From positions 3,100,001 to 3,164,000 of the forward strand of contig NC_089441.1 in assembly GCF_026210795.1 (NCBI RefSeq): a stretch of 64,000 bases of DNA. Reading direction: 5' to 3'. Each line of letters begins with the position of its first letter. The stretch's first letter is position 1. The translations under genes were made by a program, and so were the position numbers. The notes beneath the pieces are model-generated. The model made no database searches and was not told the origin of the DNA. It saw only the letters and a program-made list of their open reading frames with translations. Source of the stretch: Rhizophagus irregularis. Taxonomy: Eukaryota > Glomeromycota > Glomeromycetes > Glomerales > Glomeraceae. This document shows, one piece after another, positions 33 through 64,000 of the stretch.

Positions 33-1979
33 TTAAATCGTATTAATATCTTTAATAGCGTAGCCCAATGATGAATGTATAATACTATTAGGAGTAGTAA
101 GTGGCAATGACGCTTTTCTTTTAAACATATATCTACAGGTAGAGTTTAATTTTTTTGTTTGAGAATTTGTCCAAACTAACAATTGTGCTTTATAGTCAAC
201 ATGAGGAATGATCACGTGATTATATATATATTTCATCTGCAAATCTGTTATTTGTTTGAAGCTAATTGTTTTATTATATCTTTTAATAATATCCTTACAC
301 TGATTAAAGACATAATTAGTTTTTAAGTCTAAATTAATCCAGACACCTAAAATTCTCACAGATTCTTTTGATGTTAATGGTTTAACCATTCTTTTTGACG
401 ATTCAAAATTAACTTCAACAATATCTTTATCTAACTTTTTATTCGTTATCATTTCAAACTTATCATAATTTGTTTGTATATTATTCATAATGTTGAATTC
501 ATCTGCAATTTTCAAGATCTGCTCTAACTGAGCTTTATTTTTAGTAATCCACGTGACGTCATTCATGTATGACTGTGATGATATATTGATCCTAAGTTTT
601 TCTTCTTGCTCAGATTGTATATTACTTTTAAAACAATGTTCAATTTCATATCTCATTTTTAATGAATTAATTTCTGCAAGCAATGGATCGTAATAAATTG
701 TCTATAGCAGCAGTGAAATGACCTCACCTTGATCTATTCCTATAATAGACGTATATTGTCTCGTTATTCCATTTTCTTTTATAACACTTTTTTTACTATT
801 CGTAAATAAGTTAATCATCAAACAGATCAAAACCTCTGGGATCTTAATTCTTTGCAATGCTAATCTAAGCATCTTAATATCTACCCTATTGTAAGCTTTA
901 GAGAGGTCCTGAAAAGTCAACCATAACTCTTTATTATTCTTCTTTGCATCTTCGATACAAGTATTAATGATTCTTAGAGGCACCTCTGTAGATCCACCAG
1001 GTAGTCCCGCGTGATTACCTCCCTTTAATATATTACGCTCTGCAATAACTTTAGATAATCTTTTTGTAATAATTTTCATTAACACTTTTCTTAAAGTTTC
1101 TAAAAGTATTATTGGTCTAGTTTTTGTTAATGAGTATTCCCAATCCATTATCTTCAGGATAAGGTATAATAACGCGTGTCTCCATTCTTCAGGGATATCA
1201 CCAACTTGTAAACATAAATTTGCTAATTTTAACGTGACACTTTTCATTGAAATTCCCATATGTTTGAGCATTTCATTCGATATCTGGGAGATTCCTAGTG
1301 CTTTATCATTTGCTAGCTGTCTAATCATATGGTCCCATTCACTCTTACTAATAGGTTGAATGACCTCGTTGTACCAACATTCATTTATATCTTGTTTCGG
1401 ACTATATTGACGAATCCATCTTCCTTTTAACTTTTCATTTGAATTCAACTTTTTTTCCGCAAATGATCTGAAATATTCGATCAACTCATTTTCTATCAAT
1501 TCCTCATCTGAAATTAATTGTTTTACTGAATTTTTTTCTATCACTATTTTATTCAGGACAATTTTACTTCTTTTTCTATTCAACGTAGAATCTAGAAACC
1601 TTTTTTTATTATCTTGTAGATCCTCACACTGTCGTTGGATATAAAACTTCATTTTCTCTTCTTTATATATTTTACTTTTTTCAGCAAAATTCACTTGAAC
1701 TAATTTAAAAACTATCTTGACTATTTCTTTAAACTCTTTTATATTTTTATCAAGCAGTCCATCTATGTCTATTGCAAACTTAAGACATATTTCTGTTATT
1801 GTTTCATAATGCTTTTCTATAAATTTTTTACACTCTCTATAATTAGTTAAATTTAAACTCATAATCTTTTTTTCTGTTAAATTTGTTAAGATATATGATA
1901 GTTTATGTAAAAATCTCTTATAAAACACAATTGTTTTTGGCAACACTTCTTTGTTTGGGTTACCTTTCTTTTTTGGCAA
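33..1979 (-). pseudogene. LINE reverse transcriptase domain (broken ORF2 part)
   Basis: Two open stretches (702-1979 and 33-683) are parts of one reverse transcriptase. The first holds the finger region with RPIILLETLRK, the GGSTE segment and motif A as FQDLSKAYNRVD; it ends near IDQGEVIS (motif B region). The reading then shifts frame and goes on with motif C, seen as YMNDVTW, where the family norm is an aromatic-x-D-D core. The first catalytic Asp is therefore Asn here. Known role of the family: target-primed reverse transcription at the nicked insertion site. Frameshift near 700 and a stop at about 33 show it cannot make an active enzyme. Confidence 0.88.
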
Positions 1980-2212
1980 TTCACTATTAGCTTTTTAAAC
2001 GTATCTCAAATTGTATTCCATATTCTATTTATATTATTGATTGAAATTTCTACGCTATTAATTATATCTTTTTCTTTATCCAATAACTTCTCTATTTTTT
2101 CTGCATATGTTTCCCATAATTGACTATCTATTTTCTTATAATCCACTTTCAAATTTTTATTATTATGTTTTTTCTTTTTGAATAATTGTTTTGTATGAAA
2201 CAGGTCATCTAT

Positions 2213-2998
2213 TTAGAAATATACTGTTACAGCTGAATGATCGGTTTCAAATATGTGAACTTTATTCGTAGACACATAGATAGTATCTGATACTAAATCT
2301 TCTGTAACCCACATATAATCAATTCTAGATTTTTTATCTGATCTATTCCATGTATTCAATGGTCTATCATGATATATTAAATTAATATCAACCATAACAT
2401 TCTTTTTTAATATTTGAAAAATACGATCTTTCCAAAAAATTTTTCGATTTGCTCTTTGTTGAGCTATCGCTGTATCATAGCTTGCATTAAAATCTCCAAC
2501 ACAAATTATTTTAGCTTGTAATTTTTTCTCAACTATTAAAATTTCTTCTAATTTCGTATAAAATTCCAAAATTTCATCTTTATAACTATTATTCAAAAAG
2601 TTATAAATTGCGATTATTGTGAAACAAATCTTTCCCTTCAACAGTAACGTAAGTTTTAAAGCTTGACCTTCAATGATATTTTTTTTTATAACATATTTTG
2701 CATAATCGTTATTCATTATAATCCTGACTCCAGTCGAAAAATGGTTGTCAGCGTCGTATGACCACCAAGTCGTTATATCCTTATAATCTTTATAAATCAT
2801 TTTCGCACTAGCAGTTTGAAGTTTTGTTTCTGTAACTATTAAACAACTAATCTTATTAATTTTCATATAATTTAAAACTTGTTCTTGCTTAAGTATTGTA
2901 TTTAGTCCTGATACATTAATTGTTGTTATCTTAAATGTATTTTTAATGTCTATAATACCATCAATAGATGGTCAAATATCTATAGGTTGTACTATCAT
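2213..2998 (-). pseudogene. LINE APE-type endonuclease domain (N-terminal ORF2)
   Basis: Exonuclease-endonuclease-phosphatase fold protein that in active LINEs nicks the target DNA. Visible landmarks are TETKLQ (metal-binding Glu region), GDFNASYD (Asp/Asn catalytic pair), SRIDYMWV and the C-terminal TDHSAV (catalytic Asp-His). The start at 2998 overlaps the ORF1 stop by ATGA. There is one stop soon after the start (near 2972, DI*PSIDG), then a second after VTVYF at 2213; both are consistent with C-to-T changes. The linker to the RT (2212-1980) is readable as lysine-rich protein but carries another stop and a one-base frameshift just before 1979. Confidence 0.85.
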
Positions 2999-5255
2999 TT
3001 TTGATTATATTGGGGGTTGGTTATTCCGTTATTGAATTCTCTAGCCCTGTTTTCATTGACATATGGTGTTTGATTATTCATATAAAGGTCAAATTTTCCT
3101 GTCATATTTGTTAACATACTAAACGCCTGATCCATTTTGGCTTCAAAATTATCTAATCGTTATGTATTTCCTTCTTGATTTTTTGGGGACGAAGGTGATG
3201 TACCCAGCGCAGTTGATGGTTCATATATGAACTTTTCTGTCTCAACTATTTTATTTACTTCACTATCTTCTTCCATAGGAGATAATGTACGAGTTTGTAC
3301 ATTTGGCAAAACATTTTTTTCAATATATATATCATGTGTTTGTTGAAATTCTTTTACCCTCTTATTATTATTATTCATGAACATATTATCATCTTTAGCA
3401 AACATTAGATCTACTTTTCTATTACTCAACATCTCAGCTTGATTAATATGATTAATTTCTAAATTTGAAACCCTCTCATTCAATTTTTGTATCATATTCA
3501 TGAATTTTTCCATTTGTCGTTCCAATCTATCCAGCCTATCACCCTCATTATTAACTGGTGTAGGATTAATATTCTGTTGATTCCAAGGTTTTCTTACTGG
3601 CTCTTGTGTTTCTTGTTGTTTTTCTTTTCCTTTGTAAGATTGAGATGGACCTTGACTTGAAGTTAAAACATTTGCTCTTACATTGGGTACTGTCTTAATT
3701 TTCTTTGCAGCCTCAGCATAACTTGAAAGACCTTGTAACGGCATTTCTTGTTTGACTTCTTCATCCCAATAGGACCCCGGATATCTAATATAAAGGTCAT
3801 AATGGACTTTTGCCAAAAACACCCTTTTTGCGAAACTCAAAAAATCGTTTTTTGTAAATATCTCAGCATCCAGTAATTCAATTTTAATGAACTTTTTTTT
3901 ATTTGTAGCCCTCATTTAGCTCTACAATTTAAAAAAAAGTTCATCAAAATTGGACCACTGGATGCCGAGATATTTACAAAAAACGATTTTTTGAGCCCTG
4001 AAAAATGGGCCAATCTGCCGAAAGTGTGACTTATGACCTGTTTTGGAGATATCCGGGGTCCTATCCCAATTGTACATACCTTCTGACTTATCAGGTTGAT
4101 ATTGTGAATTTCTAGGGAATAATGGTCTGAACCCCATACTTGGTTTGGATGCTTTTACTCCATATCTACTATAAATCTGTTGATATACTTCATGTGTTGA
4201 TGACATGTTTCTTTTCCTTTGATTTTCTGGACATGTTCTGACTCGATGATAAAGAGAACCACATACATGGCACGTGACTGCATCATAATTAATGAAAACT
4301 AAGCCTCGATTGTTAAAAGAGAATTTCTTTCCTAGGGTATTATTAAGATCGTTCTCATTATCAAAAAAGACAAATGCGAACCTTTCTTTCTCATAATTTT
4401 TTGAAAACCTATTCTTAGGTACGAAACATGATTTTGCCTTTATTTGTATGATAATATCTTTCAAATCTGCAGCATATGTACCTATCATACGGGTAAATTA
4501 GCTAATTTCAACCCATATTTAAACCGTAAATTCCTTTCGTCCTTGGTTAAGTTAGATGGAAAAATCCTAAACGCGTATTTGCAAAATCTCAATGACCATA
4601 AGTCTTTAAATTTTTCTTCCACTTGTTTACCGTTGAATCTAACTACTACTTTATAGTATAAATTTTCAACATTAAATTTGAGGGTTTTAATTGGTCCAAA
4701 ACTTTTCAAATATACTTCTAACATCTGCTTGTCCACATCTAGTGAAACATCCCAGATTTTAATTTCATAATCATTAAGATTATCATGTTGCTGATTGTTG
4801 ATTACTTCCAATTTAGCAAATCTTACATCATTATCATCTGCAATTTTCTTGGCACAAACTTCAGCCGCTTGTGCTTCCATTTCATATGTTGCTCGAATCA
4901 CCTTAATACCTTTAATGGCAGTTGGTGCCAACGAGATTAGCCCAAGCACATCCGAAATTTTCCTATATACGAAATTTTTCTTGGCAATAATATTATCGCC
5001 TGGAAGACTATCTTGCGGAATAAAAATACTAAAACGTTGAGACTTCTTAATAATAGTTCAACCATCATCTTTCTTCGCTTCTTTAGAGGTTGTATTCTGA
5101 CCAGGGTGACTTGCGTTAATTTGAGCATGCATAGAGGCATTTAGCCTTACGTTAGTATTACTATTCGTCTGTATGGGTTATTGAGCTATCGAAGAGCTCG
5201 TCGAAGCAGCCGAAGTGCTACTTCCTGAAGGTTAGGTAAATTCTACCCCTTCCAT
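2995..5255 (-). pseudogene. LINE ORF1 protein, RRM-like/CCHC, interrupted
   Basis: Nucleic-acid-binding ORF1 of copy A. Reading from 5255 (MEGVEFT) one frame runs to 4485 with only three stops: TAA at 5234-5232, TAA at 5180-5178 and TGA at 5060-5058, each one C-to-T change away from Gln or Arg. It covers two RRM-like stretches (about 4485-4800 and 4300-4480). A frameshift at 4485 leads into a CCHC knuckle, CHVCGSLYHRVRTC, near 4225-4275. A MITE then splits the frame at 4062/3771. Beyond it follow a coiled coil (RLERQMEKFMNMIQKLNERV) and a low-complexity tail, with one more TAA at about 3162 before the ORF1 stop at 2995. Confidence 0.82.
3771..4062. mobile_element. Palindromic MITE, AGGACCCCGG ends, 8-bp TSD, inside LINE ORF1
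   Basis: Nearly the whole 292 bp is an inverted repeat with arms of about 145 bp. Ends are AGGACCCCGGATATC and GATATCCGGGGTCCT. The element is flanked by an exact 8-bp direct repeat ATCCCAAT at 3763-3770 and 4063-4070, as expected for a hAT-type insertion. It breaks the LINE ORF1 after the codons for YNW/DEEV, so it came after the LINE. The apparent ORF start at 3915 is inside the MITE and is not a gene. Confidence 0.92.
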
Positions 5256-14060: not shown

Positions 14061-15060
14061 CTATATTTTTTTTAAATAATGTCCAAGTAACTTTTTTTCT
14101 ATTATGTTAGTTGTATCTAAGAAGACTGATCTGTATGTACGGTTGAGAGACCATGCTGCATCCAATGTAGATTCACATAGGTTGTCTATAAATTTTCTGA
14201 TGTGTCTATCAACTCTTTTACCATCCCAATAAATGTTATATATTAAATCTTTTTGTTGTGAATCTTTAATATTAATGCAAATTGGTTTTTTTGTGTCATT
14301 TTTTGCCACCCTATCTGCTTCTTCATTACCTTTGACTCCTGAATGACCTTTAACTTTTACTAACTTTATCTCTAACTGTTTGCTATCGATAAGGTTAATT
14401 ATACTACTTACTATGCTGTAGTTGTTGCACTTGCACCATGTTCGTGTTTTATCTTTCCCATTTGTTAAATTTGTTCTTATGTAATTAATACTATCTATAG
14501 CGGCTTTGGAGTCTGTAATAATATTTGCTTTCTGTCCTGTCTGTAAAACCAATATGGCTGACAGAATGGCTTCTAGTTCTGCACGTGTAGATGAGGGCCA
14601 GTCTGTGATCGAACTATTACATTCCAGCGTTACTTCATCTTTACTATTCAGTATCACTCAGCCTGTATCCATGTTAGGGTTTCGATCCGGATCTGGTCAA
14701 TCCAGATTCAAATCCGGATTCCCTTGTTTTTTGGACATCCGGATCTTACTTTTTTGTAACGGATGAATCCGTTTTTATTAATTTGAGCCAGCACTATAAA
14801 TTTGGCCAGAGATAGCAAATTTTGCAGACAGTTAATCTTTGACGTTTAATATTAATTACGGTCAAAATTATAATTTTGGTCAGAGTTAAGGTCAAATTTA
14901 GAATCCGGATTCAATCTGGATTTGCAAGAGAAGATCCGGATTCTATCCGAATTGCTTTAAAAAATAGGATCGAAACCCTAATCCATGTACTTTAGAAAGC
15001 TAGAGCTATTGTTAAAACGATTTGTTAAGGCAGCCATCTGCGTATATATTAATTCTATCA
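14061..15060 (-). pseudogene. LINE copy B RNase H domain, split by MITE
   Basis: Type I RNase H, which degrades the RNA strand of the hybrid during retrotransposition. First catalytic Asp is in INIYADG near 15037. The second acidic residue is in RAELEAI (about 14575), the third in ITDSKAAIDS (about 14510) and the last in GNEEADRVAK (about 14320), so all four acidic residues are present. A 306-bp MITE (14980-14675) lies between the first and second, and a stop lies next to it (about 14998). Without the insertion the domain would look well kept, so the insertion may be fairly recent. Confidence 0.85.
14675..14980. mobile_element. 306-bp MITE, TAGGGTTTCGATCC ends
   Basis: Perfect 14-bp inverted ends TAGGGTTTCGATCC and GGATCGAAACCCTA, exact direct repeat ATCCATGT at 14667-14674 and 14981-14988. 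GATCCGGATTC-like subterminal repeats resemble those of the larger elements at 54-63 kb. TAG-first ends and 8-bp duplication fit the hAT superfamily. Sits between catalytic residues of RNase H. Confidence 0.93.
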
Positions 15061-15905: not shown

Positions 15906-16580
15906 AATACAAATTAAATTTACTAATTTACAAATAATTTTAATAAACTAAAATTATATTTTATTAAGCAAATTTAAACTTATATTATTTAGAATTTTAC
16001 TATAATTCATATTTTGAGTTTTAGCAAATTAATATAGATTTAAAATATGATAATTTGATTTTTAGTAAATTAGATCTATTTTAGTGAGAGCAAAAAGTGC
16101 TAAATTTATGCAGATCAGTTATGAATTATATATGTAATGTCTGGATCCTATTTAGATCTTACTTACTAAATTCAAATCTACTTAACAATATACATGTGAA
16201 GTATTTTAATTATATTTGTATTTTTTTTTTTATAATTTTAATATTTTAGTTTGAATAATAATATTATTATATAGATATTTAATAATAATTTAATATAATA
16301 TAAAATATTATTATTAGTATATTTATACAATAATATATAATTAATATTTTATTATAAATAAATAATTTTAAAAAAGTTAACTAATTAAAATTTTATAATA
16401 ATTAAAAATACAATTAAAATTTCATATATTTTTTAATTAGTTAATTTGGTTTAATAAAAAATAGTAATTATATAAAAAATAGGATTTATTTGATGATTAC
16501 TGGAGGTTAATTTTCAAAAAATTCATCAGACATGATATTCACCAGGTATTTCATTTGGTATACCTTGTGATTGGCATCAT
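15906..16580. other. AT-rich intergenic stretch
   Basis: No gene or clear repeat; dominated by AATTTA and TTAAT runs. Confidence 0.5.
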
Positions 16581-16589
16581 TTAAATTTT

Positions 16590-17090
16590 TAATTACATTG
16601 CAAGGTAAATGCCATTTCACTTCTTTTTCTGCTCTTTTTTGTTTTTCTCTTCAATTGAAACATTATTAATATTTTTTTTTATTTCCCTATTTTTTAAAAT
16701 AGATGAACGGCTCTGGAAATCAACTTGTATTTTAGTTTTACAAGATAAGTGACATTTCATTTCTTTTTCATTTTTCATTTTTTCTTGATTTGGGAACATC
16801 ATTTTTCTTTTTATTTTTTTAAAAATGGCTGAATAACTTTAGAAATTGACCTGTATTTTAGTTTACAAGTAGTCGGTATTATATTTTTTCATTTTTTTTT
16901 ATTTTTTTATTGATTTGGAAATGTCATTAATATTCCTTTTTCTTTTTTTTTTAGGAATATCCAAATTAGAAAATCAACCAAGAATTTAAATTTACAAGAT
17001 GAGTGATATTTCGTTTCCTTTTTATTCTGTTTCATTTTTTGTTTAATTTAAGAATGCTACTAATGTTCCTTCTTTTTTTTATAATCATCT
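16590..17090. repeat. ~130-bp tandem repeat, about four units
   Basis: Each unit holds TTTACAAG, then GTGACATTTCATTTC, a T-rich stretch with TTGATTTGG, then CATCATTTTTC and GAAAT(C/T)(A/G)AC. Units begin near 16605, 16741, 16867 and 16997 and diverge by small indels. The ORF at 16617-16802 (minus) is a run-through of this repeat. Confidence 0.65.
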
Positions 17091-19437: not shown

Positions 19438-19963
19438 CATCAGGAAATTTGTTTAAGCATATATAATTTAGTGTAATATTTCGGAGGTGGTGTAAAATTT
19501 CAAAATATTACACTAAAAACGTAATATTACAAAAGTTTACGCTCTTAAATTTGAATAATTATAGTAATTTAAGAATATCTCGCTATCTACTGATCCAATC
19601 AAGACGATCTATAGCTCATTGGAATCAGCTCATCAAGACGGATCGAATGGTAGTGAATTCGCATTTCTACAGTTGATAGAACGCTCTATAGTATGCAATA
19701 AAGTTTTTAATTAATAGAAAGTCATCTATCAAACATAAAGATATGATTTTACTACCATTCGATTCGTCTTGATGAGCTGATTCCAATGAGCTATAGATCG
19801 TCTTGATTGGATCAGTAGATAGTGAGATATTCTTAAATTACTATAATTATTCAAATTTAAGAGCATAAACTTTTGTAATATTACGTTTTTAGTGTAATAT
19901 TTCGAAATTTTACACCACCTCCAAAATATTACACTAAATTACGCCTAAACAAATTTCCTGATG
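19438..19963. mobile_element. 526-bp near-perfect palindrome, TA target duplication
   Basis: Arms of about 250 bp; ends CATCAGGAAATTTGTTTAAG and the matching AAACAAATTTCCTGATG. TA at 19436-19437 and 19964-19965 fits a Tc1/mariner-type MITE. A smaller inverted block, TTAGTGTAATATTTCGGAGG ... AAATATTACACTAAA, sits just inside each end. The 33-bp module occurs in both arms near 19600-19650 and 19750-19800. As single-stranded RNA or DNA it would fold into a long hairpin. Confidence 0.9.
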
Positions 19964-19965
19964 TA

Positions 19966-20299
19966 TATGTAAATTTTTATTAAGCTAACTCAAATACTTA
20001 TAAAATTATAAATATTTTTTAATAGTATTAATTTTTGTTTTTATACAAAAGATTATATATACATTTAATAACTCATTACATTAACTGTTACATCCAGTTA
20101 CCTTAATTCAAATACCCTCACAAGTTTTTTACAATTGAATACAAAAGAAAATACAAGAATATAATGAAGATTATTATTATTTTTATTTTTAAAAGTTTCT
20201 CCAGTCTATAATAAAGATAGTGAATTTACAAATTACATAGCTAAAGAAACGAAATGTTATGTTTGGGGAATTTAGATTTTGACAAATGACATGTTAGGA
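19966..20299. other. AT-rich stretch without genes
   Basis: Nothing recognised between the palindrome and the intron-like array. Confidence 0.5.
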
Positions 20300-21665
20300 T
20301 GTGTATTAGGAGGACGCTGGCTTGAATACTACGAAATCAGACTTTAAGGTAGTAAGAATGGAAAAGGGGAAGGATTTTTTGTTATTTTTAATTTAAGAAA
20401 CAAAGTAAAGTTTCTTTTCGTTATTTTTTTTTTGTAGGACGCATAATAGGACGCCAGCTTGAATATGAAACTGGACTTTAAGGTAAAAAATGGGGAAAGG
20501 AGAATTTTTTTATTTTAAATATGAGAAACGAACTAACATTTCTTTAATTATTTTTTTTTTTATAGGACGCGTAGAAAGGGGATGGAGGAAGGTGATTTTG
20601 TTAGAACTAAGATTCTTATCTTGGTTTATTTATTTTTTCTTTTATTTTATGGAACGGTTTACTAACCGTTCCTTTCTTTCTTTTATAGGTTCAGGTGGAC
20701 TTCTGACGAATGAAACCAAGATTCGTAAGTATTCTGAATTCTGGTTTATTTTTATTGTTTTTTATTATTATGAACGGTTACTATCCATTCTTTTTTTTTG
20801 ATTTTTATAGGATCGGTGGGCTTTTAAAGAACGGAAAAACCCAAAGATTCGTAAGTATGAGTACGAATCCTTATTTTTTTTTATTTTATTTTTTATTATT
20901 ATTACGAACGGTTTACTAACTGTTTTTTCTTTTTTTTATAGGATCGAGTGGACTTCTGAAGATTAGAAAAAGGAGAACTAAGGCTTATAAGTATTATATT
21001 ACGAACCTTAGATTTTTTTTTTAATATTATGAACGGTTTACTAACCATTTTTCTTTTTTTTTTAGGTCTCGGATGGGTTTCCTAAGAACGGAAAAAGGAA
21101 ACCCTTTATTAAGATTCGTAAGTATTCTATCTTATAAATCTTAGATTCTTTTTTTAATGTTATAGAACAGTTACTAACCATTCTTTTACTTTTTTATAGA
21201 TCTAGGATGGGCTTCTGAATAACAGAAAAGAACTAAGATTCGTAAGTATTCTGAATCTTAGTTTTTTTCTTCTTTTTTTTAATATTATGAACGGTTACTA
21301 ACCATTCCTTTTCTTTTTTTCATAGATTTGGGTGGATTTCCAAAGAACCAAAAGAAAGAACCAAGATTCGTAAGTATATACGAATCTTGTTTTTATTATT
21401 ATTATTTTTTTATTATTATGAACGATTACTAACCGTTCTTTTTCTTTTTTTTAGGTCTCGGGTAGGTTTTCGAAGAATGGAAAAAGAAGGCCAAGATTCG
21501 TAAGTATATACGAATCTTAACAGATTGGTAAGTTTCGAAGTTTCACTTCGAAACTTTTTAATTAAATTAATTTTTTTTTATTAATACTTTTATCTTTTTA
21601 TTGTAGGTTGTATTTCCTGGACACGAAGATTGGTAAGTTTTGAAGAATAACTTCAAAACTTTTTT
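20300..21665 (+). repeat. Tandem array of intron-like units (array A)
   Basis: About ten units of 120-135 bp. Each has a donor GTAAGTAT (20725, 20851, 21118, 21242, 21370, 21500; a variant ATAAGTAT near 20986; later donors at 21528 and 21633), a branch-site match TACTAAC (20660, 20914, 21039, 21172, 21296, 21427; variant TACTATC at 20779), then a pyrimidine tract and TAG. Intron-like parts are about 85-90 nt (20725-20810, 20851-20941). The mini-exons between them are 36-52 nt with a shared core (GGNTGGGCTTCTGAAGAACG-like) and no constant frame. Donor and branch site lie in short hairpins (AAGATTCGTAAGTATATACG; GAACGGTTACTAACCGTTC). Strand given is that of the splice signals. Confidence 0.85.
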
Positions 21666-23608
21666 TTGTTCCAGAGTATTGAGTTAATTTAATAGACTTT
21701 AGTATATAGATTGTTATAGTTTAATTTAATGTATATAGATTGTTATAGTGTAATTTAATAAAATAATTTGTTATTCAATAATAATATAAATAATAGTAAA
21801 ATATTGATATGATGTTTATTATCTTTAAAATAATGTATATCGTAATGTATAGGCAATAAACATTTTGAATTGGTGATGAACATCGAATATTGTAACATCA
21901 GTAGTAAATTGCAGGGTCCGATGTTCAGCGTTTCTTTATGATGTACATCAAGTGGCCAATGTACATTTGATGAATATTTTTTCCGTGACTTCCTGATGAA
22001 ATTTAATAAAAAATTATAAAATTTTATTTTATAGAAGTTTTATTTTTATATTATTCTCATAAAGTTAAATTTTAAGATTTTTGAGCTAATTATTTTGAAT
22101 ACTATACAGTTTTAATTTGTAGAAATTTGTATAATAAAGTACAGTAATTATATTATAGTATTATATTATACTATATAAACTCTTACCATACAGTACAATT
22201 TAACTGATAATTTCAATTATTATAAAGTTATTTACTTTGAAAAATATTATATTTGTTTATTTTTTAGTAATACAGTAATAATGAAAACTGAAAAATAACT
22301 ATAATTAATTTATGTAAAATTTTAATTTTAGATAAATTTATAAAAATAAATTATTACTTCAATATTTTTTTTTTTTATAATATAAATTTTTTATAATATT
22401 TATATATTATTTTATATATAATAATAATTGGTAATTTAAATTTAAAATTCAATGTAGAATTTTTTATATATATTTTAACTTTTGCCAATACTTAAGCTTA
22501 TATATTAATTTTAATTTTTTTTAAAAAATATTGTTTGAACTCAAATAATGAATTTGAAGTATTTTAATATAACTTTTTACTTTATATATATCTAGTTAAA
22601 TATCATGTATTTTGAAGTTAACCATCCTTAATATGATAGTTATTAAAATAGCATTTTCTTATTAAATTTGATTATGGTGAAGTTGCAGATTCAATTTTAT
22701 TAATCATGAAAATTAAAAGAATTTTACTGCAGATGTTACTACTAATAATATGAAGTACAGGGATTAGTGTAAGTTAAACTGCATCATGGTAAATTAATAT
22801 ATACAGTTAGGCTGCATATTTTAACAAAAGGTTATAATATCCTCTTAATGTTTTCTAAAAAAATATTGGAAGTTTCAAAATCCTGTTCTTAAAGTCACTA
22901 CTTGCATATTTTGGGAAAATGGTCTTGTTTTAATGGTTATTCTATAATATTATTAAGGATATAATATGCTTTACTAAGGGGTATAATACGTTAGATAACA
23001 GGATGAACATGCATTATATTACAATATCGATCACTTACCGATCATGATATATGTGATACCACATTAAATTTGAAGCTTTATTCCAAACAATAAATGTTCT
23101 AACAATTTATGTAAATTATTTTATTTAATAGTTTAATTTATCAATAATTTAATATAAAAGTATTGTGGCAAAATAAGATGTGTTTCCAAAGTTAGATTTT
23201 ACATCAATTTTTCAATAATTAATATATATGCTATATATATGCCAATCATCTGCTAATCTGACTTTGAAGCCTCAGGCAAAGCCACAGATCTTTAGACGAA
23301 ACTTGAAACTTTTACAGTATTCAAAAATCAATGGCTAAAATAAATATGGATAATTTTTGATAACTTAAAAGTTATTATTAAATAAATGGTTACAATTATT
23401 GTAAAATTAATATATGTCTGATATTTGGCAAAATCTTTATGAATTATTTTAAGAACCAATAAATAAAATAAAGTGAATAAAATTGAAATTTTATATATTA
23501 TTATGTAAAATTTGTGAAAAAATCAATTCAACGGTATTTTTTTATGTGATAATATTGGACAAGTAATTGGCAAAATAATCAGCAATATCATGATAATATG
23601 GGATATCC
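21666..23608. other. AT-rich stretch without genes
   Basis: No ORF, RNA gene or transposon end recognised. 21890-21990 carries repeated words around GATGTACATC/TGATGAACATC. Slightly less AT-rich at 23220-23300. Confidence 0.5.
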
Positions 23609-54001: not shown

Positions 54002-55701
54002 TAGTGCTCTGAAAAAAATCTGATTTGATCTGGATTCGCAGATTTGATCTGAGTCAGATCCAGTTCAGTTTTCAAAATTTTGATCTGTAAATCAGATCGG
54101 ATTTAAAAAAATCTGATCCGATCAGTTTCAGATCGGATCAGATCATAACACAAGAAAATCTGATCTGATCTGAACAGATTCGGATCAGATTTTTTTTTTA
54201 AAAAAAAAAAATTTATTTTTTTATTTTTTTTAAAAACCCTTTCCTGGACGAACAGACGCCAGACGACCAAGATTTAAAAGAATGAACTAGATAAGTTTGT
54301 TTCTTTTTTTTTGTTATTTTTACTTGAGGAAACGTAATTAACGTTCCCTTTCTTTTTTTTTTAGGAAATCTGAACATGGACGAAGTCTACTGACCAGGAT
54401 TTAAAAAAAAATGAACTATGGTAAGTTCATTTCTTTTTTTTTAGTTTTTTTTTTATTTTACTTAAAGGAACACAATTAACATTCCCTTTCTTTTTTTTTA
54501 GGAAACCTGAACATGGATGAAGCCTAATGACCAGAATTTAAAAAAAGAACGAACTATGTAAGTTCATTTCTTTTTTTTGTTATTTTTACTTGAGAGAACA
54601 TAATTAACAGTTCTCTTTCTTTTTTTTAGAAAACCTGGATGTGAACGAAACCTAATGACCAGGATTTAAAAAAAGAACAAATATGGTAAGTTCGTTGCTT
54701 TTTTTTAAGTTTTTTTTTTTATTTTACTTAAGGAACCGTAATTAACGTTCCCTTTCTTTTTTATTTTTTAAACCTGAACGTAATAAGCCTAACAACCAGA
54801 ATTTAAAAAAAGAATGAACTATGGTAAGTTCATTTTTTTTTTAAAGTTTTTTTTTTATTTTACTTAAGAGCATCAAGTAATTAATGTTCCCTTTCTTTTT
54901 TTAAAAACCTGAATGGGAACGTAACGACAGATTTAAAAAAGAACGAATCCACAAGCATTTTTTTTTCCCTTATACTTAATGTTTAACGAACCAGGTTTCT
55001 TTTTTTCCTGGATGCGAACGTTTTTTTAAGCTATTTTCAACTAGGATTTAAAAAAGAACGTAATTATGTTCCCTTTCTTTTTTTTTTAAGTTTTTTTTAT
55101 TTTATTCTTAGCGAACGAAGTCAATTAACGTTCCTTTAATTGTGGATTTAAAAAAGAATGAACTATGGTAAGTTCGTTTCTTTTTTTAAGTTTTTTTTTT
55201 ATTTTTACTTGAGGGAACTGAATTAATAGTTCCCTTTCTTTTATTTTAGAAAACCTGGATGTGAGACGAAGCTGAACGACTAGGATTTAAAAGAACGAAC
55301 TATGGTAAGTTCATTTTTTTATTTTTATTTTTTATTTTTATTTAAGGAACGTAATTAACGTTCTCTTTCCTTTTATTTTTAGGAAACCTGGACGTGAGAT
55401 GAAGCTAAACAACCAGGATTTAAAAAAATGAACTATGGTAAGTTCGTTTTTTTATTTTTATTTTTATTTTTTTACTTTAAGGAATGTAATTAATGTTCCC
55501 TTTCCTTTTTTTAGTACAAGGACCAGATTCAAACCAGATTCAGATTAGATTCAAATCGAATTTAAATGGATTCGAATTAGATTCAGATTAAATTGAACCA
55601 GATCAGATCAGATTCAGATCAGATCAGATCTATTAAAATAAAAATCAGATCAAATCAGATTTAAGCTGAATCCGGTCTGAACTGATCTGTTAGTAACACT
55701 A
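54002..55701. mobile_element. hAT-like element E1, AGATCAGATC ends, carrying array B
   Basis: Starts TAGTGCTCTGAAAAAAATCT and ends GATCTGTTAGTAACACTA. 54020-54190 and 55510-55690 are dense AGATCAGATC/GATTCGGATCAG repeats in opposite arms. The interior is the intron-like array B and no transposase. Flanking 8-mers (TAGGCCAG, GTTCAAGT) do not match, so boundaries are from the ends only. The right flank is array A-like sequence. Confidence 0.75.
54235..55515 (+). repeat. Tandem array of intron-like units (array B)
   Basis: About ten units of 130-137 bp. Donor GTAAGTTC at 54421, 54558, 54686, 55305 and 55438 among others; a TTTACTTAAGGAACGTAATT stretch with branch-like TAATTAAC; pyrimidine tract; TAG. 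Measured intron-like parts: 54421-54501 (81 nt), 54558-54629 (72 nt), 55305-55382 (78 nt). Mini-exons: 54365-54420, 54502-54557 and 54630-54685 are each 56 nt, 55250-55304 and 55383-55437 are 55 nt, with shared GAAACCTGGACGTGAACGAA-like sequence and in-frame stops. Donor sits in GAACTATGGTAAGTTC and branch site in GGAACGTAATTAACGTTCC, both hairpins. The middle units (54760-55150) have lost some signals. Confidence 0.85.
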
Positions 55702-55995
55702 GTTCAAGTGGGCTTCCAAAAAACAGAAAACCAAGATTCGTAAATACGAATCTTGGTTTATTTTTTTTCTTTTTTTTAATATTATTATAAACAGTTACTA
55801 ATAACTGTTCCTTTCTTTTTTTAGGTTTTGGGTTGGCTTCTGATCTTCAGAAAAGTAGAACCAAAATTTGTAAATACGAATCTTAGTTTTTTTTCTTATT
55901 TTTTTAATATTATGAACAGTTACTAACCATTCTTCTCTTTCTTTTATAGGTTCAGATGGATTGCCAAAGAACGATTAAAGATTCATATATACGAA
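55702..55995 (+). repeat. Array A-type units next to element E1
   Basis: Two to three units close to those at 20.3-21.7 kb: GTGGGCTTCC...CCAAGATTCGTAAATACGAA (donor changed from GTAAGT to GTAAAT), AACAGTTACTAATAACTGTT, then TTTAGGTTTTGGGTTGGCTT, and TACTAAC at 55921-55927. The ORF at 55956-56153 is a run-on from this repeat. Confidence 0.8.
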
Positions 55996-56833
55996 TACAT
56001 GAATCATGTAATTGTAAAATTGTATTTGAATTAACAATATTTATTTGTAAATTAGATAGATGCAATAATAATAATATAATTATAAAGTATTTAAGCATTA
56101 ATAAATACATTTATTTAATAAATTTGATAAAAAAAATTGAAATAAATTCATAAATAAATGGGTTGTTGTTAGACCATAATTTGGCTTAAAATTTTAATAT
56201 TGAATATTAGTCAATTTAAGCCTAAATAATGGTTGAATAATTAGTTCAAATTTGGGACGATTGGCACCCTAAATGAGCCTAAAAATTCAACCTCAATTTG
56301 ATACAGGTTAGATCATCATTTGAACTATATTTGACTTGATCAAATTTAGGCTGAATTGTCCTATTTTAACTAGTGTGGGTTAATCTGAAATTTTTCAGGT
56401 TTCAGGTCAGGTTAGGTCAAGCAGATAACCTGATATAACTTGACTTAATCTGACCCAAAAAAAATTTCAGGTCAGATTTATCAATTAATTTGACCTGACC
56501 AAACTAATTTAGAACTCTAACTGCAATGCGTCTATTTTTTAATATAATATAATCTATTAATAAACCTTAAGAAAAAGATGTATTGGCTATAACATATTCA
56601 TCATATATATTAGTTCTGGCATTATGCAATTTATAAAAAAACATATGTCATACACTCGCCTATCATGATTAAATTAATAAAACTAATATTAGTTTTAGTT
56701 CAGTTAGCTTCTTAAAACATATCATTATGATTTTAATTGATTTTTCACTATAGATGTCCTATAATAAAATGGATATATTGTTATATATCGGCATTTTGAT
56801 CTTTACCAAAAAATCACTGACCATCATCATGTG
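55996..56833. other. Repeat-derived stretch without genes
   Basis: 56175-56520 holds GGTCAGGTTAGGTCAAG and TTTGACCTGACC words that pair as a weak inverted repeat, perhaps an old MITE; ends not certain. Nothing coding. Confidence 0.4.
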
Positions 56834-58270
56834 TAGTGTTCTGAAAAAAACCGATCCGATTCGTATCCACAGATCTGATCCGTAACAGATCAGATCAGAC
56901 CATATATTTTATGATCTGTGATCTGATCCGAATCAAAAAAATTTGATCCATTTTGGATCAAATCAGATCAGATCAACAATTCATTAAAATCAGATCAGAT
57001 CGGATTGATTTGAACGGATCTAATTCAAAACCATTGCAAAATGGTAAATAAAAAACATTTCACAATGTTTTTTATTAAAATCGTTAAAAAAATGTTGCAA
57101 AATGTTTTTTTTGATAAATTAATAATAAAAAATGTTTCGCAACATTTTTTATTAAATAGTTAAAAAAAACCATTGCAAAATGGTATTTTTTTCTTTAAAT
57201 TGAAAGTAAAAAACGTTTTACAACGTTTTTTATTAAAATCGTTAAAAAAATGTTGCGAAATATTTTTTCGATAAATTAATAATAAAAAACGTTTTGCAAC
57301 GTTTTTTATTAAAATAGTTAAAAAATCGTTGTAAAACAGTTTTTTTCCTTTAAATTAATAATAAAAAACATTTCGCAACATTTTTTATTAAAATATTTAA
57401 AAAAACTGTTGTGAAATGGTATTTTTTCTTTTAAATTAAAAATAAAAAACATTTCGCAACATTTTTTATAAAATCGTTAAAAAAATATTGCAAAACATTT
57501 TTTTTTCGATAAATTAATAATAAAAAATGTTTCGCAATGTTTTTTATTAAAATAGTTAAAAAACCGTTGCAAACCAGTTTTTTTCTTTTAAATTGAAAGT
57601 AAAAAACGTTTTGCAACATTTTTTATTAAAATAGTTAAAAAAACCATTGCGAAATGGTATTTTTTATTTTAAATTAAAAATAAAAAACTTTTCGCAACAT
57701 TTTTTATTAAAATCGTTAAAAAACTGTTGCAAAACATTTTTTTTAATAAATTAATAATAAAAAATTTTTATAATGTTTTTTATTAAATAGTTAAAAAAAC
57801 TGTTGCGAAATGGTATTTTTTTTTTTAAATTGAAAGTAAAAAATATTTCACAACGTTTTTTATATTAAAATAGTTAAAAAACTATTGCGAAATAGTTTTT
57901 TTCTTTTAAATTAATAATAAAAAATGTTTTGCAACATTTTTTATTAAAATAGTTAAAAAAAATCGTTGCGAAATGGTATTTTTATTTTAAATTAAAAATA
58001 AAAAACGTTTCACAACATTTTTTATTAAAATCATTAAAAAAACATTGCGAAATGTTTTTTTTCAATAAATTAATAATAAAAAATGTTTCGCAACATTTTT
58101 TAAATTTTGGATTCAAATCGAATCAGATGATAAATCTGAATTGAATTCAGATCAAATCGAATTAAGTCTGTTTCAGATTCGGATCAGATTAGATCCATTT
58201 TTTTTATCCGAATTTGGATCAGATCAGATTCATTTCAAATCTGATCTGATTCGATCCGTTTAGAATACTA
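56834..58270. mobile_element. hAT-like element E2, AGATCAGATC ends, GTTGCGAAAC array
   Basis: Starts TAGTGTTCTGAAAAAAACCG and ends GATCCGTTTAGAATACTA. Flanking 8-mers ATCATGTG and ATTACGTG match at 6 of 8. Subterminal AGATCAGATC repeats in both arms (56850-57020, 58110-58260). The interior is a hairpin array, no transposase. Confidence 0.78.
57030..58105. repeat. Hairpin minisatellite inside E2
   Basis: About 27 short hairpins such as AAAACGTTTTGCAACGTTTT and AAACCGTTGCGAAATGGTTT, joined by TATTAAAATCGTTAAAA and TAAATTAATAATAAA spacers. GTTTCGCAAC and its reverse GTTGCGAAAC alternate. Confidence 0.88.
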
Positions 58271-60689: not shown

Positions 60690-63308
60690 TAATGTTCCGA
60701 AAAAAATCCGATCCGATTCGTATTCGTGGATCTGATCTGAGACAGATCAGATCGAATCATAGATTTTATGATCCGTGATCTGATCCGGATCAAAAAAATT
60801 TGATCCGATTCAGATTGAATCAAATCAGATCAACAATTCATTCAAATCGAATCGGATCAGATTTGATTCGAGCAGATTCAGATCAGATCTGGATCAGATC
60901 AGATCAAAGCGCACTGTTACATTGCGAAATGTTAAGTTAAAAAACGTTTCGCAACATTTTTATTAAAATGATTAAAAAACGTTGCGAAACGGTTTTTTTA
61001 TTCATTAAATTGAAATAAAAAAACGTTTCACAACATTTTTTTATTAAAATGATTAAAAACCGTTGCGAAATGGTTTTTATTCGTTAAAATGAAATAAAAA
61101 AATGTTTCGCAACGTTTTTTTATTAAATAATTAAAAACCGTTGCGAAACAGTTTTTTTTCATAAAATAATACGAAAAGATGCCATTTCGGCATCTTTTTT
61201 GATAAAAAAATGAAAAAGATGCCGAAACGGCATCTTTTTTATAAAATAATACGAAAGATGCCGTTTCAGCATCTTTTTTTCATAAAATAATACGAAAAGA
61301 TGCTGAAACAGCATTTTTTTTGATAAAAAAGTGAAAAAGCATCTTTTTTTCATAAAATAATATTAAAAGATGCCATTTCGGCATCTTTTTTGATAAAAAA
61401 AAAATGAAAAAGATGCTGAAGCATCTTTTTTGATAAAATAATATTAAAAGATATGTTTCGCATCTTTTTTCTAAAATAATATAAAAGATGCGAAACAAAG
61501 CATCTTTTGATAAAAAATGAGAAGATGCCGAACAGCATCTTTTTTATAAATAATATTAAAAGATGCCGTTTTCAGCATCTTTTCGATAAAATAATATTAA
61601 AGATGCAAGTTTCCAGCATCTTTTTCATAAAATAATACGAAAAGACAGCGCAGATCTTTTATGATAAAAACCCCGAAAAAAGACTGCCAAGATCTTTTTC
61701 GATAAAATAATATTAAAAGATGAAAACATTTTTTTTTCGCATCTTTTTTATAAATACTTAAAAGATGCCGTTCTGGCATCTTTTTACAAAAAAATGAAAA
61801 GATGCCGAAACAGCATTCTTTTTGATAAAAATTCTTTTTCGATAAATGAAAAAGACAGCAAGATCTTTTCGATAAAATAATATAAAAGAAAAGCACCGCC
61901 TTAAGCATCTTTTTTGATAAAAACGTAAAGATGCCGAAACAGCATCTTTTTATAAAATAATACTAAAGATGTTATTTCAGCATCTTTTTTATAAAATAAT
62001 ACGAAAGATGCTGTTTCAAGCATCTTTTTCTCGTAAAATAATACGAAAGATGCCGTTTCTATCTTTTTTGATAAAAAATGAAAAAGATCGAAACGTATCT
62101 TTTTTTTTTCATAAAATAATATTAAAGATGCCGAAGCGTCTTTTTTGATAAAATAATATTAAAAGATGCCGAAGCATCTTTTTTGATAAAATAATATTAA
62201 AAGATGCGTTTCACATTTTTTATAAAATAATACGAAAAGATGCATTTCGGCATCTTTATAAAATAATACGAAAGATGCAATTTCGTATATCTTTTCTCGT
62301 AAAATAATATGAAAGATGCGAAATGGCATCTTTTTTGATAAAAAAAATGAGTAAGATGCCGAAATGGCATTTTTTTTCATAAAATAATACAAAAGATGCC
62401 ATTTCGGCATTTTTTTTGATAAAAAAATGAAAAAGATGCCGAACAGCATCTTTTTTCATAAAATAATATTAAAAAGATTATCCGCTTTTGGCATCTTTTG
62501 ATAAAAAATGAAAAAGACCAAAGCATCTTTTTTGATAAAATAATATTAAAAGATGCGTTTTGGCATCTTTTTTTCATAAAATAATACAAAAAGATGCCGT
62601 TTTGGCATTTTTTTTTGATAAAATAATACGAAAAGATGCCGTTTTGGCATCTTTTTTACATAAAATATTATGAAAAGATGCCGTTTTGATATCTTTTTTG
62701 ATAAAATAATACGAAAGATACCAAAACGGCACTTTATTTGATAAAAAATGAAAAAGATGCCGAAACGGCATCTTTTTCTTTTTTAAATAAAATAACGCCG
62801 TTTAACATTTCTATTTATGCATTTAACAAAAAAAACGTCTTTCGCAATGTTTTTTAATTGTATTAATGAGAAACGTTGCGAAACATTTTTTATTTGATAA
62901 TTTAATGAAATAAAAGCGTTTTTCGCAGCGGGTTTTAACTATATAAATAAAAAACGTTGCGAAAACGTTTTTATTTAATAATTTTACCGATAAAAAATCA
63001 TTTTCGCAATTGTTTAATAAAAACGTTGCGAAACGTTTTGTTTGATAATTTGCTATAAAAAGTTGTTTAAGCAACGTCTTTTAACAATATTAATAAAAAA
63101 ACGTTGCGAAAAACGTTTTTAATTACGAAAAATTGATTCGTATCCGGACGTATCCGATCAAATCAGTTAATCAATCGTTGATTCGACGGATCGATCGAAT
63201 CTAATTTGGATCCGAACCTGGATCAGATCGAATCATTTGATTTAATTTGATTGATCGGATCCGATCATTTAATTCAAATCCGTTTCGATCCGATCCGTTC
63301 GAACGCTA
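60690..63308. mobile_element. hAT-like element E3, AGATCAGATC ends, two hairpin arrays
   Basis: Starts TAATGTTCCGAAAAAAATCC and ends GATCCGTTCGAACGCTA. Subterminal AGATCAGATC-type repeats at 60700-60905 and 63130-63295. No clean target duplication seen. Internal arrays: GTTGCGAAAC hairpins (60920-61160, 62825-63120) flank a longer array of GATGCC...GGCATC hairpins (61165-62790). No transposase. Confidence 0.75.
60920..63120. repeat. Hairpin minisatellites inside E3
   Basis: Outer blocks resemble the array of E2 (AAAACGTTGCGAAACGGTTT). The central block has about 45 hairpins like AAAAGATGCCGTTTCGGCAT joined by TTTTTTGATAAAATAATACG spacers of about 20-25 nt. Several ORFs on the minus strand here are read-through of the spacers (FYQKKC/FIIL words) and not genes. 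Confidence 0.88.
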
Positions 63309-64000
63309 CATATCCCATCCCATACAAATTCCAAATACTTGTATAACATTTCTCCCATGGCCAATTATCATACGACATTACACAAATTTTCAAAAAAGGA
63401 AATTTTGCCTCCCGCAGGATTTGGTTTTACAAGTATTCCAAAAAAGGAAATTTCTATACCGATCACATAATTCTGGCCGTAATATTTTAGTTTTCGAAGT
63501 CTAATATTAATTCCGGTCAAAATTTAGTTTAAATCCTTATCCTACATACTCCAATTTTTAAGAGATTTACCGATCAGATTTTAATGAAATTTATATCATT
63601 GGATTTGTCTTGATGCAAGAAATTTAATGGCAGTGAAATTATATTCCCAACATTAATATTGACCAAGTTATTATAAAAAATGTATTTTATAATATATATT
63701 ATTAAATAACATGTATAAAGCAAGCAATAATTGGTTACTTTTAATATAAAAAGATATATTTATTCAATTTATTATTTTATATTTTTATTATAATTTATAT
63801 AATTTAACTTTGAATTAACTTAAACCTATCTATTAATTCATTAAAAAAAGGTTGATTGTTTATTTCTAATATATAATTTGATAGATATTATTATTATTGC
63901 ATAAATATTTAATAAAATAATATTTACAAACCAGGAATTAATTAACTGTTAATCTAAAAAACAATATCAGATATCATCAAAATTATTAATTCAATTAAAA
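63309..64000. other. Right-edge AT-rich region with dispersed words
   Basis: 63390-63480 repeats AAAAAAGGAAATTTTGCCTC and ATAATTCTGGCCGTAAT. 63565-63670 holds a divergent module copy (GGATTTGTCTTGATGCAAGA). After 63700 only AT-rich sequence. Confidence 0.5.

Follow-up and report, generated by a model that had tools for sequence, protein, structure and literature searches.

What is a tandem row of intron-like units, each with donor, branch site and acceptor in the right order, doing in a fungal genome? Such a row, which we call array A, lies in a 64,000-nucleotide stretch of the Rhizophagus irregularis genome (assembly GCF_026210795.1, contig NC_089441.1, positions 3,100,001 to 3,164,000; hereafter the window, in whose own coordinates positions are given). 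The original prediction described it as a satellite and suggested selection or propagation through splicing, as with introner-type elements, or an RNA that splicing hides inside genes. Exact-word searches of the window place the donor GTAAGTAT at 20725, 20851, 21118, 21242, 21370 and 21500 and the branch word TACTAAC at 20660, 20914, 21039, 21172, 21296 and 21427, with acceptors ending at 20688, 20810, 20941, 21065, 21199, 21325, 21454 and 21606. Array A holds six of the eight GTAAGTAT in the window (whole-window expectation 2.7, with eight reached in 1 of 100 shuffles) and six of the 14 TACTAAC (expectation 7.8, with 14 reached in 3 of 100 shuffles). The six donors, six branch words and pyrimidine-YAG acceptors, which had been predicted with TAG, are thus present at 20.6-21.6 kb as an ordered repeat, above chance. 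We defined a grammar of GTAAGT, YTAAY, a Y-tract and YAG at intron-like spacing, which occurs in full six times in 20281-21720 (two of the six share acceptor 21606), whereas 500 dinucleotide shuffles average 0.03 and never exceed 1. A second array in the window, array B, has it five times (mean 0.04 and maximum 1 in 500 shuffles). Over the whole window the grammar is found 15 times on the + strand, 11 of these within arrays A and B, and four times on the - strand.

Some units depart from the pattern: one has a damaged donor and one a variant branch word, both marked in Table 1, and a unit at 20566 has no donor. Array A introns are 79-91 nt long, or 107 nt when donor 21500 is used, and array B introns 72-82 nt. 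They had been thought to match the introns of neighbouring host genes in length; however, six presumed host introns in the window, which were picked by reading frame and composition rather than by transcripts, measure 65-73 nt and are shorter than those of array A. The interval first assigned to the array was 20300-21665; the element that contains it extends to 21998.

A protein-coding repeat gene was considered and rejected, because the exon lengths break the frame and the mini-exons contain many stops: 64 mini-exons have 121 stops over three frames, fewer than the 192 that shuffles predict but still many. Five of 61 A-like exons are open in all three frames. The mini-exons, which vary in length, as the original prediction stated, and have stops inside, are taken as non-coding. 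An Rfam search of the window returned nothing but one tRNA, a plasmid collection gave no match, and bacterial and archaeal contigs gave no match to one donor-hairpin pattern. Viral contigs gave fifteen 15-mer matches, with BLAST matches of 22-29 bases in L003 among the matches listed.

Table 1. Features of the window and of one related copy (L078).
Feature	Position	Strand	Remarks
Decayed relic of a related array	16540-17085	+	Extent by eye; sequence similarity ~16882-17083
5'-truncated CATCAGG-TIR transposon copy carrying array A	20295-21998	+	Similarity to fetched copies starts near 20295
Two D-type units	20303-20565	+	Exon GACGC..GGCTTGAATAC..ACTTTAAG; weak donors; acceptors 20437 and 20565
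Intron-like unit	20725-20810	+	Donor GTAAGTAT; branch word TACTATC at 20779
Intron-like unit	20851-20941	+	GTAAGTAT / TACTAAC / TAG
Intron-like unit	20987-21065	+	Damaged donor ATAAGTAT (20987)
Intron-like unit	21118-21199	+	
Intron-like unit	21242-21325	+	
Intron-like unit	21370-21454	+	
Last full unit	21500-21606	+	Alternative donors 21500 GTAAGTAT / 21528 GTAAGTTT, one acceptor
Non-array 3' part of array A element	21675-21971	+	Common to copies
3' terminal inverted repeat of array A element	21972-21998	-	Pattern match C13:3121972-3121998, 2 mismatches
hAT-like element carrying array B	54002-55701	+	TAGTGCTC end; GATC-rich subterminal parts; right end by eye
Array B	54276-55514	+	Units GGTAAGTTC / AATTAAC / T-tract TAG
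A-type array fragment	55702-56000	+	Donors GTAAATAC
hAT-like element, hairpin array without splice grammar	56834-58270	+	6/8 target-duplication letters match
ISAzo13-like DDE transposase ORF set inside L078	L078:1657-3925		

The named sequence closest to a window protein is from Funneliformis caledonium (87%), and two other matches reach 90-91%, pointing to a related arbuscular mycorrhizal fungus as the probable source. The assembly searched genome-wide comprises 32 contigs with a total of 146.7 Mb. With array A as the query, a DNA search found at least 138 matches in at least 39 separate places including the window, where main matches within 3 kb were joined into one place and the counts are lower bounds because 40 of 504 candidates were scored. 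Fifteen of 20 fetched copies reach a common 3' end, CTTCCTGATG; three further copies (L064, L067 and L069) match near it without its last letters, and two have no match there. The flanks diverge directly beyond this end, except in L062-L069, which are located within one larger repeated stretch. In full-length copies the 5' end is the inverted complement of the 3' end and begins CATCAGGAAGTCACGG. This 27-base terminal inverted repeat (TIR), CATCAGGAAGTCACGGGAAAAATGTTC, has 40+39 matches in the genome compared with 0 for a control, and is found within 3 kb at 23 of the at least 39 array-A-like places (the window and 22 others). No TIR match lies within 3 kb of the other 16, three of which belong to the L062-L069 group, while the rest may be decayed or have another carrier. 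Among 24 sequences scored with up to five mismatches, 10 have both TIRs, nine the 3' TIR alone (these include L059, in which a diverged 5' TIR can nevertheless be seen) and five neither (L060, L064, L066, L067 and L069). The window copy retains the 3' TIR only, its 5' part being lost. A 2-bp target duplication consisting of A/T only flanks all 10 copies with both TIRs and also L059, making 11 in total. Comparison of the copies shows array A to be, as judged from sequence, the interior of a dispersed TIR DNA transposon and not the free satellite that had been proposed.

Just upstream of the array A element there is a large imperfect palindrome (19438-19970, by eye), perhaps another foldback-type element. 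The A-type arrays of L062-L069 are part of a larger repeat; L063, L074 and L075 are at C8:567-577 kb, in a stretch with long ORFs, of which one is transposase-like and one ZZ-zinc-finger-like (by eye).

Seven of the 11 two-ended copies are 2.4-2.8 kb long, and the others measure 3.2, 3.8, 4.3 and 6.7 kb, the 4.3 kb copy holding a nested element. ORFs were listed for two copies (L061 and L073), in which the longest, of 125 aa, is array-derived and there is no long gene-like ORF; the transposon is apparently non-autonomous. The 6.7 kb copy (L078), which has the same TIRs, contains an ISAzo13-like DDE ORF (PF07592, E 0.005, below cut-off) belonging to a large transposase family with 136 matches, and this ORF may be an autonomous partner or a nested insert. 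L078 aside, no transposase match was seen by eye near the CATCAGG TIR places. The anatomy of L061 and L073, read by eye, runs from the TIR through approximately 300 nt of repeat-free sequence, a CT-rich leader and the first donor to D-type units, A-type units and hairpin-bearing last units, followed by approximately 300 nt and the second TIR. In the seven full-length copies measured, the element runs for 416-478 nt before the first GTAAGT and continues for 371-561 nt beyond the last grammar acceptor. All 12 copies scored for the grammar have 5-13 non-overlapping introns on the + strand (6-14 when alternative donors are counted) and none on the reverse strand.

These positions bear on whether the array acts as camouflage, in the sense that a row of introns would let the transposon leave the host mRNA after landing in a gene, much as introners do. 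Some insertions do fall within frames that read through the reconstructed empty site, those of L071 (171 aa) and L072 (313 aa) being in the sense orientation; by eye, the L072 frame resembles a retro-aspartic protease and L073 interrupts a kinase-like ORF. However, splicing between the outermost sites would leave hundreds of transposon bases in the message, and orientation shows no bias: of the longest frames across the junction in 11 copies, 6 are sense and 5 antisense, several of them too short to be informative. Nor was any lone unit found as an intron of a coding host gene in the 28 loci described below, and the ends of the element are not splice sites. We consider camouflage quite unlikely, and the introner-type origin of the original prediction is not supported rather than excluded, since four loci with lone introns (L096-L099) have an unclear context.

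The same kind of intron cargo is present in unrelated elements. Array B is carried by a hAT-like element with the end TAGTGCTC. An 8-bp target duplication, for which right ends were chosen for matching flanks, is perfect in L077, L107, L108, L109 and L110 and matches at 7/8 letters in L104, and was not found in 5 of 12 hAT-like sequences, the window array B copy among them. Eight further copies with the TAGTGCTC end were fetched; five have arrays made up of 4-10 grammar introns, and the others (L103, L106 and L109) have no intron array. Within the window, hAT-like ends at 56834-58270 and 60690-63310 (the second right end by eye) enclose hairpin arrays that lack the splice grammar, which indicates that one element family carries different tandem cargoes. 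A third, TTAAGG-ended family has ends TTAAGGTT and subterminal repeats TGCCGAAAC, its ends being read by eye. In L080, where the element is the reverse complement of 826-2440, it contains a row of about six near-identical intron units, and L081 and L082 are similar. The L080 end word TTAAGGTTGCTTGCCGAAAC has 702+738 matches genome-wide with up to two mismatches, so this intron carrier probably represents the longer version of a short element that is abundant in the genome. The window also contains, on the minus strand at 33-5057, the remains of a LINE-like retroelement with reverse transcriptase (PF00078) and endonuclease (PF03372) ORFs, and an RNase H ORF at 14061-14657.

We then opened 28 loci matching GTAAGTAT-N-TACTAAC, 20 of which were hand-picked from the list of matches. 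Two or more grammar introns in a row occur in 6 of the 8 and in 12 of the 20, so that 18 of the 28 hold arrays. The remaining loci are L018 and nine others (L019, L089 and L096-L102). L018 is a presumed host intron in a kinase-like gene (by eye), which has the same GTAAGTAT and TACTAAC words in otherwise unrelated sequence. L096-L099 each have one lone cassette-like intron that includes a branch hairpin and lies in a frame interrupted by stop codons; they could be non-coding exons of the host, remnants of arrays or introns gained singly. L100 and L102 represent another repeated family, tandem by eye, with donor and branch words and no branch hairpin.

The branch hairpin itself recurs more widely: GGAACG-n-TACTAAC-n-GTTCC has 75+57 matches in the genome compared with 0 in a control, with several spacers, and a stem of at least five pairs is present at 20 of 26 exact matches. 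The module recurs in arrays with different exons, and 16 array-A-like places have no CATCAGG TIR nearby. Both observations favour a selfish intron cassette able to pass from one transposon family to another, by gene conversion or reverse splicing for instance, before multiplying in tandem. Because the exons and donor halves differ between the families (by eye), common descent is not proven, and we regard such a cassette as rather improbable. A wider reading, to which we would give similarly little weight on the sequences at hand, is that rows of optimal introns may be a shared strategy of unrelated fungal DNA transposons, an anti-silencing shield whose cassette possibly moves between families. 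The non-coding transcripts of such elements would be spliced many times, and rapid, complete splicing would protect them from spliceosome-coupled RNA silencing.

The donor and branch words occur mostly within the loops of hairpins. A hairpin encloses 122 of 132 branch words and 67 of 84 GTAAGT donors, whereas for randomly chosen positions of these elements the corresponding counts are 79 of 298 and 134 of 300; in the six host introns the figures are 2/6 for the branch and 1/6 for the donor. Acceptors and Y-tracts are outside the hairpins (by inspection). RNA hairpins as a selected feature were considered and are not supported by the stems. G-U pairs number 63 against 43 A-C, compared with 83 and 49 at random positions of the same elements (35 and 31 in the window stems alone), and the variable donor-stem pair of family B is CG 11, TA 7, CA 13 and TG 7 times, as expected of random combination, implying that RNA pairing is not what is kept there. 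Taken together, the copies show the cargo to be a row of complete introns, predicted to be U2-type cassettes, with non-coding mini-exons, the splice words standing mostly in hairpin loops.

The frequency of hairpins raises the possibility that the arrays are a by-product, namely hairpin minisatellites that arise by amplification of palindromes, with donor and branch words present in the loops by chance and without a role. The arrays without splice grammar in sister elements and the random combination of the family B stem pair fit this reading, as does the conservation of family A, where the arms of the hairpins come close to the donor in rank and are almost as well conserved. It does not account for the acceptors and Y-tracts, which are outside the hairpins, nor for the correct order, spacing and strand of the signals in three unrelated elements. 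Genome-wide, the correct word order has 116+118 matches (control 23+23) and the reversed order 13+34 (control 13+14), part of the latter being arrays with short exons. In six array A units chosen by landmarks the donor word is 0.96 identical, compared with 0.71 and 0.58 for the arms. We consider an accidental by-product unlikely.

Conservation of the splice words was compared further between copies. Two subfamilies, represented by the majority letters of four and three copies in the last array part with words marked on one subfamily, differ at 1 of 60 donor and branch columns and at 49 of 403 other non-T columns (Fisher p=0.012), a pattern suggesting that donor and branch words were under selection during the active period of the transposon, again in disagreement with chance loops. 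Acceptor columns differ at 2 of 42. Across 42 ordered comparisons of seven full-length copies, which are not independent of each other, GTAAGT is the best kept of 30 common 6-mers (69% fully kept, compared with 39.5% for non-T-run 6-mers), and TACTAAC is kept in 56% compared with 36%. Acceptors are kept in 58% of 226 comparisons of these copies, which goes against a reading of constraint and is perhaps due to misalignment within T-tracts. For 30 family B units, the GTAAGT columns average 0.98 and the AATTAA columns 1.0, compared with a mean of 0.89 for non-T columns, while the acceptor value is uninformative since these units were cut at acceptors. The branch word of family A ranks 32 of 120 and is missing from two truncated units. 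Within copies, branch (0.58) and acceptor (0.69) vary like the rest (0.63), and many units have lost a donor. The concern raised with the original prediction, that the signal words might be no better kept than the rest of the unit, thus does not apply to donor and branch, and for the acceptors the outcome is mixed (58%; 2/42). The claim that the repeat keeps splice signals rather than a frame stands, in that donor and branch words are better kept in the genome copies. The comparisons give moderate support, from small numbers, to constraint on donor and branch in the transposing lineage followed by decay after insertion; for the acceptors they point both ways.

As an explanation, we tentatively suggest that array A is the cargo of a TIR transposon that makes a spliced non-coding transcript, and that splicing keeps the element unsilenced; we hold this to be possible, though we would stop just short of calling it probable. 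The element would be transcribed from its own 5' leader, the CT-rich stretch that precedes the first donor of full-length copies, and the resulting RNA would be spliced many times over. Efficient splicing might then keep transcription from being silenced, for example by RNAi triggered by stalled spliceosomes, and this step is a guess and the weakest of the three. In Cryptococcus, transposon transcripts that are poorly spliced give rise to small RNA via a spliceosome-coupled complex, as described in PMC5851062; fast and complete splicing would avoid RNAi of this type. Against this explanation, it is not obvious why a gene-less DNA transposon should need a transcript, the same hAT-like family includes hairpin arrays that lack the splice grammar, and the 16 places with no TIR within 3 kb mean that part of the array-A-like sequence may have another carrier. 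The CT-rich leader would also suit a captured host gene for a multi-exon non-coding RNA that serves the host, which we think very improbable given that unrelated elements share the design. As raised in the original prediction, selection or propagation through splicing is possible. Its observation of a real and unusual feature is correct, and its interpretation is partly correct.

If the proposed explanation holds, these transposons exploit the spliceosome through a repeated functional cargo and not, as introners do, for hiding in genes. The arrays would then provide a natural test of whether splicing quality decides the silencing of transcripts, and possibly a nursery for new introns. They may explain part of the unclassified repeats in such genomes: according to the abstract of PMC11075540, two-thirds of the transposable elements of R. 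irregularis are unclassified, and 'intron', 'splic' and 'tandem' are absent from its main text. We recognised no description of intron-array transposons among the open-licence papers listed by our searches.

Several known systems resemble these elements. MITEs and other non-autonomous TIR elements have TIRs, short target duplications and an internal core of tandem repeats, whereas in the array A element a spliceosomal intron cassette forms the core repeat. hAT transposons have an 8-bp target duplication and short TAGTG.. ends, both of which are shared by the carrier of array B, which differs in its core of intron arrays or hairpin arrays. Introners, which are found in Pezizomycotina, algae and others, are dispersed transposon-like sequences bearing spliceosomal splice sites, and some known families have TIRs and target duplications like the array A element, as described in PMC9860276, whose main text has 0 occurrences of 'Glomero' and 'tandem'. 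They differ from the present elements, in which a tandem row of 5-13 introns with mini-exons occupies one element, the array A element does not end at splice sites, and the inspected loci include no intron of a coding gene with this sequence. The sister stwintrons of Hypoxylaceae, described in PMC8469720, are also repeated fungal introns with internal symmetry; however, they are nested introns in host genes, whereas here the hairpins enclose donor and branch separately, inside transposons.
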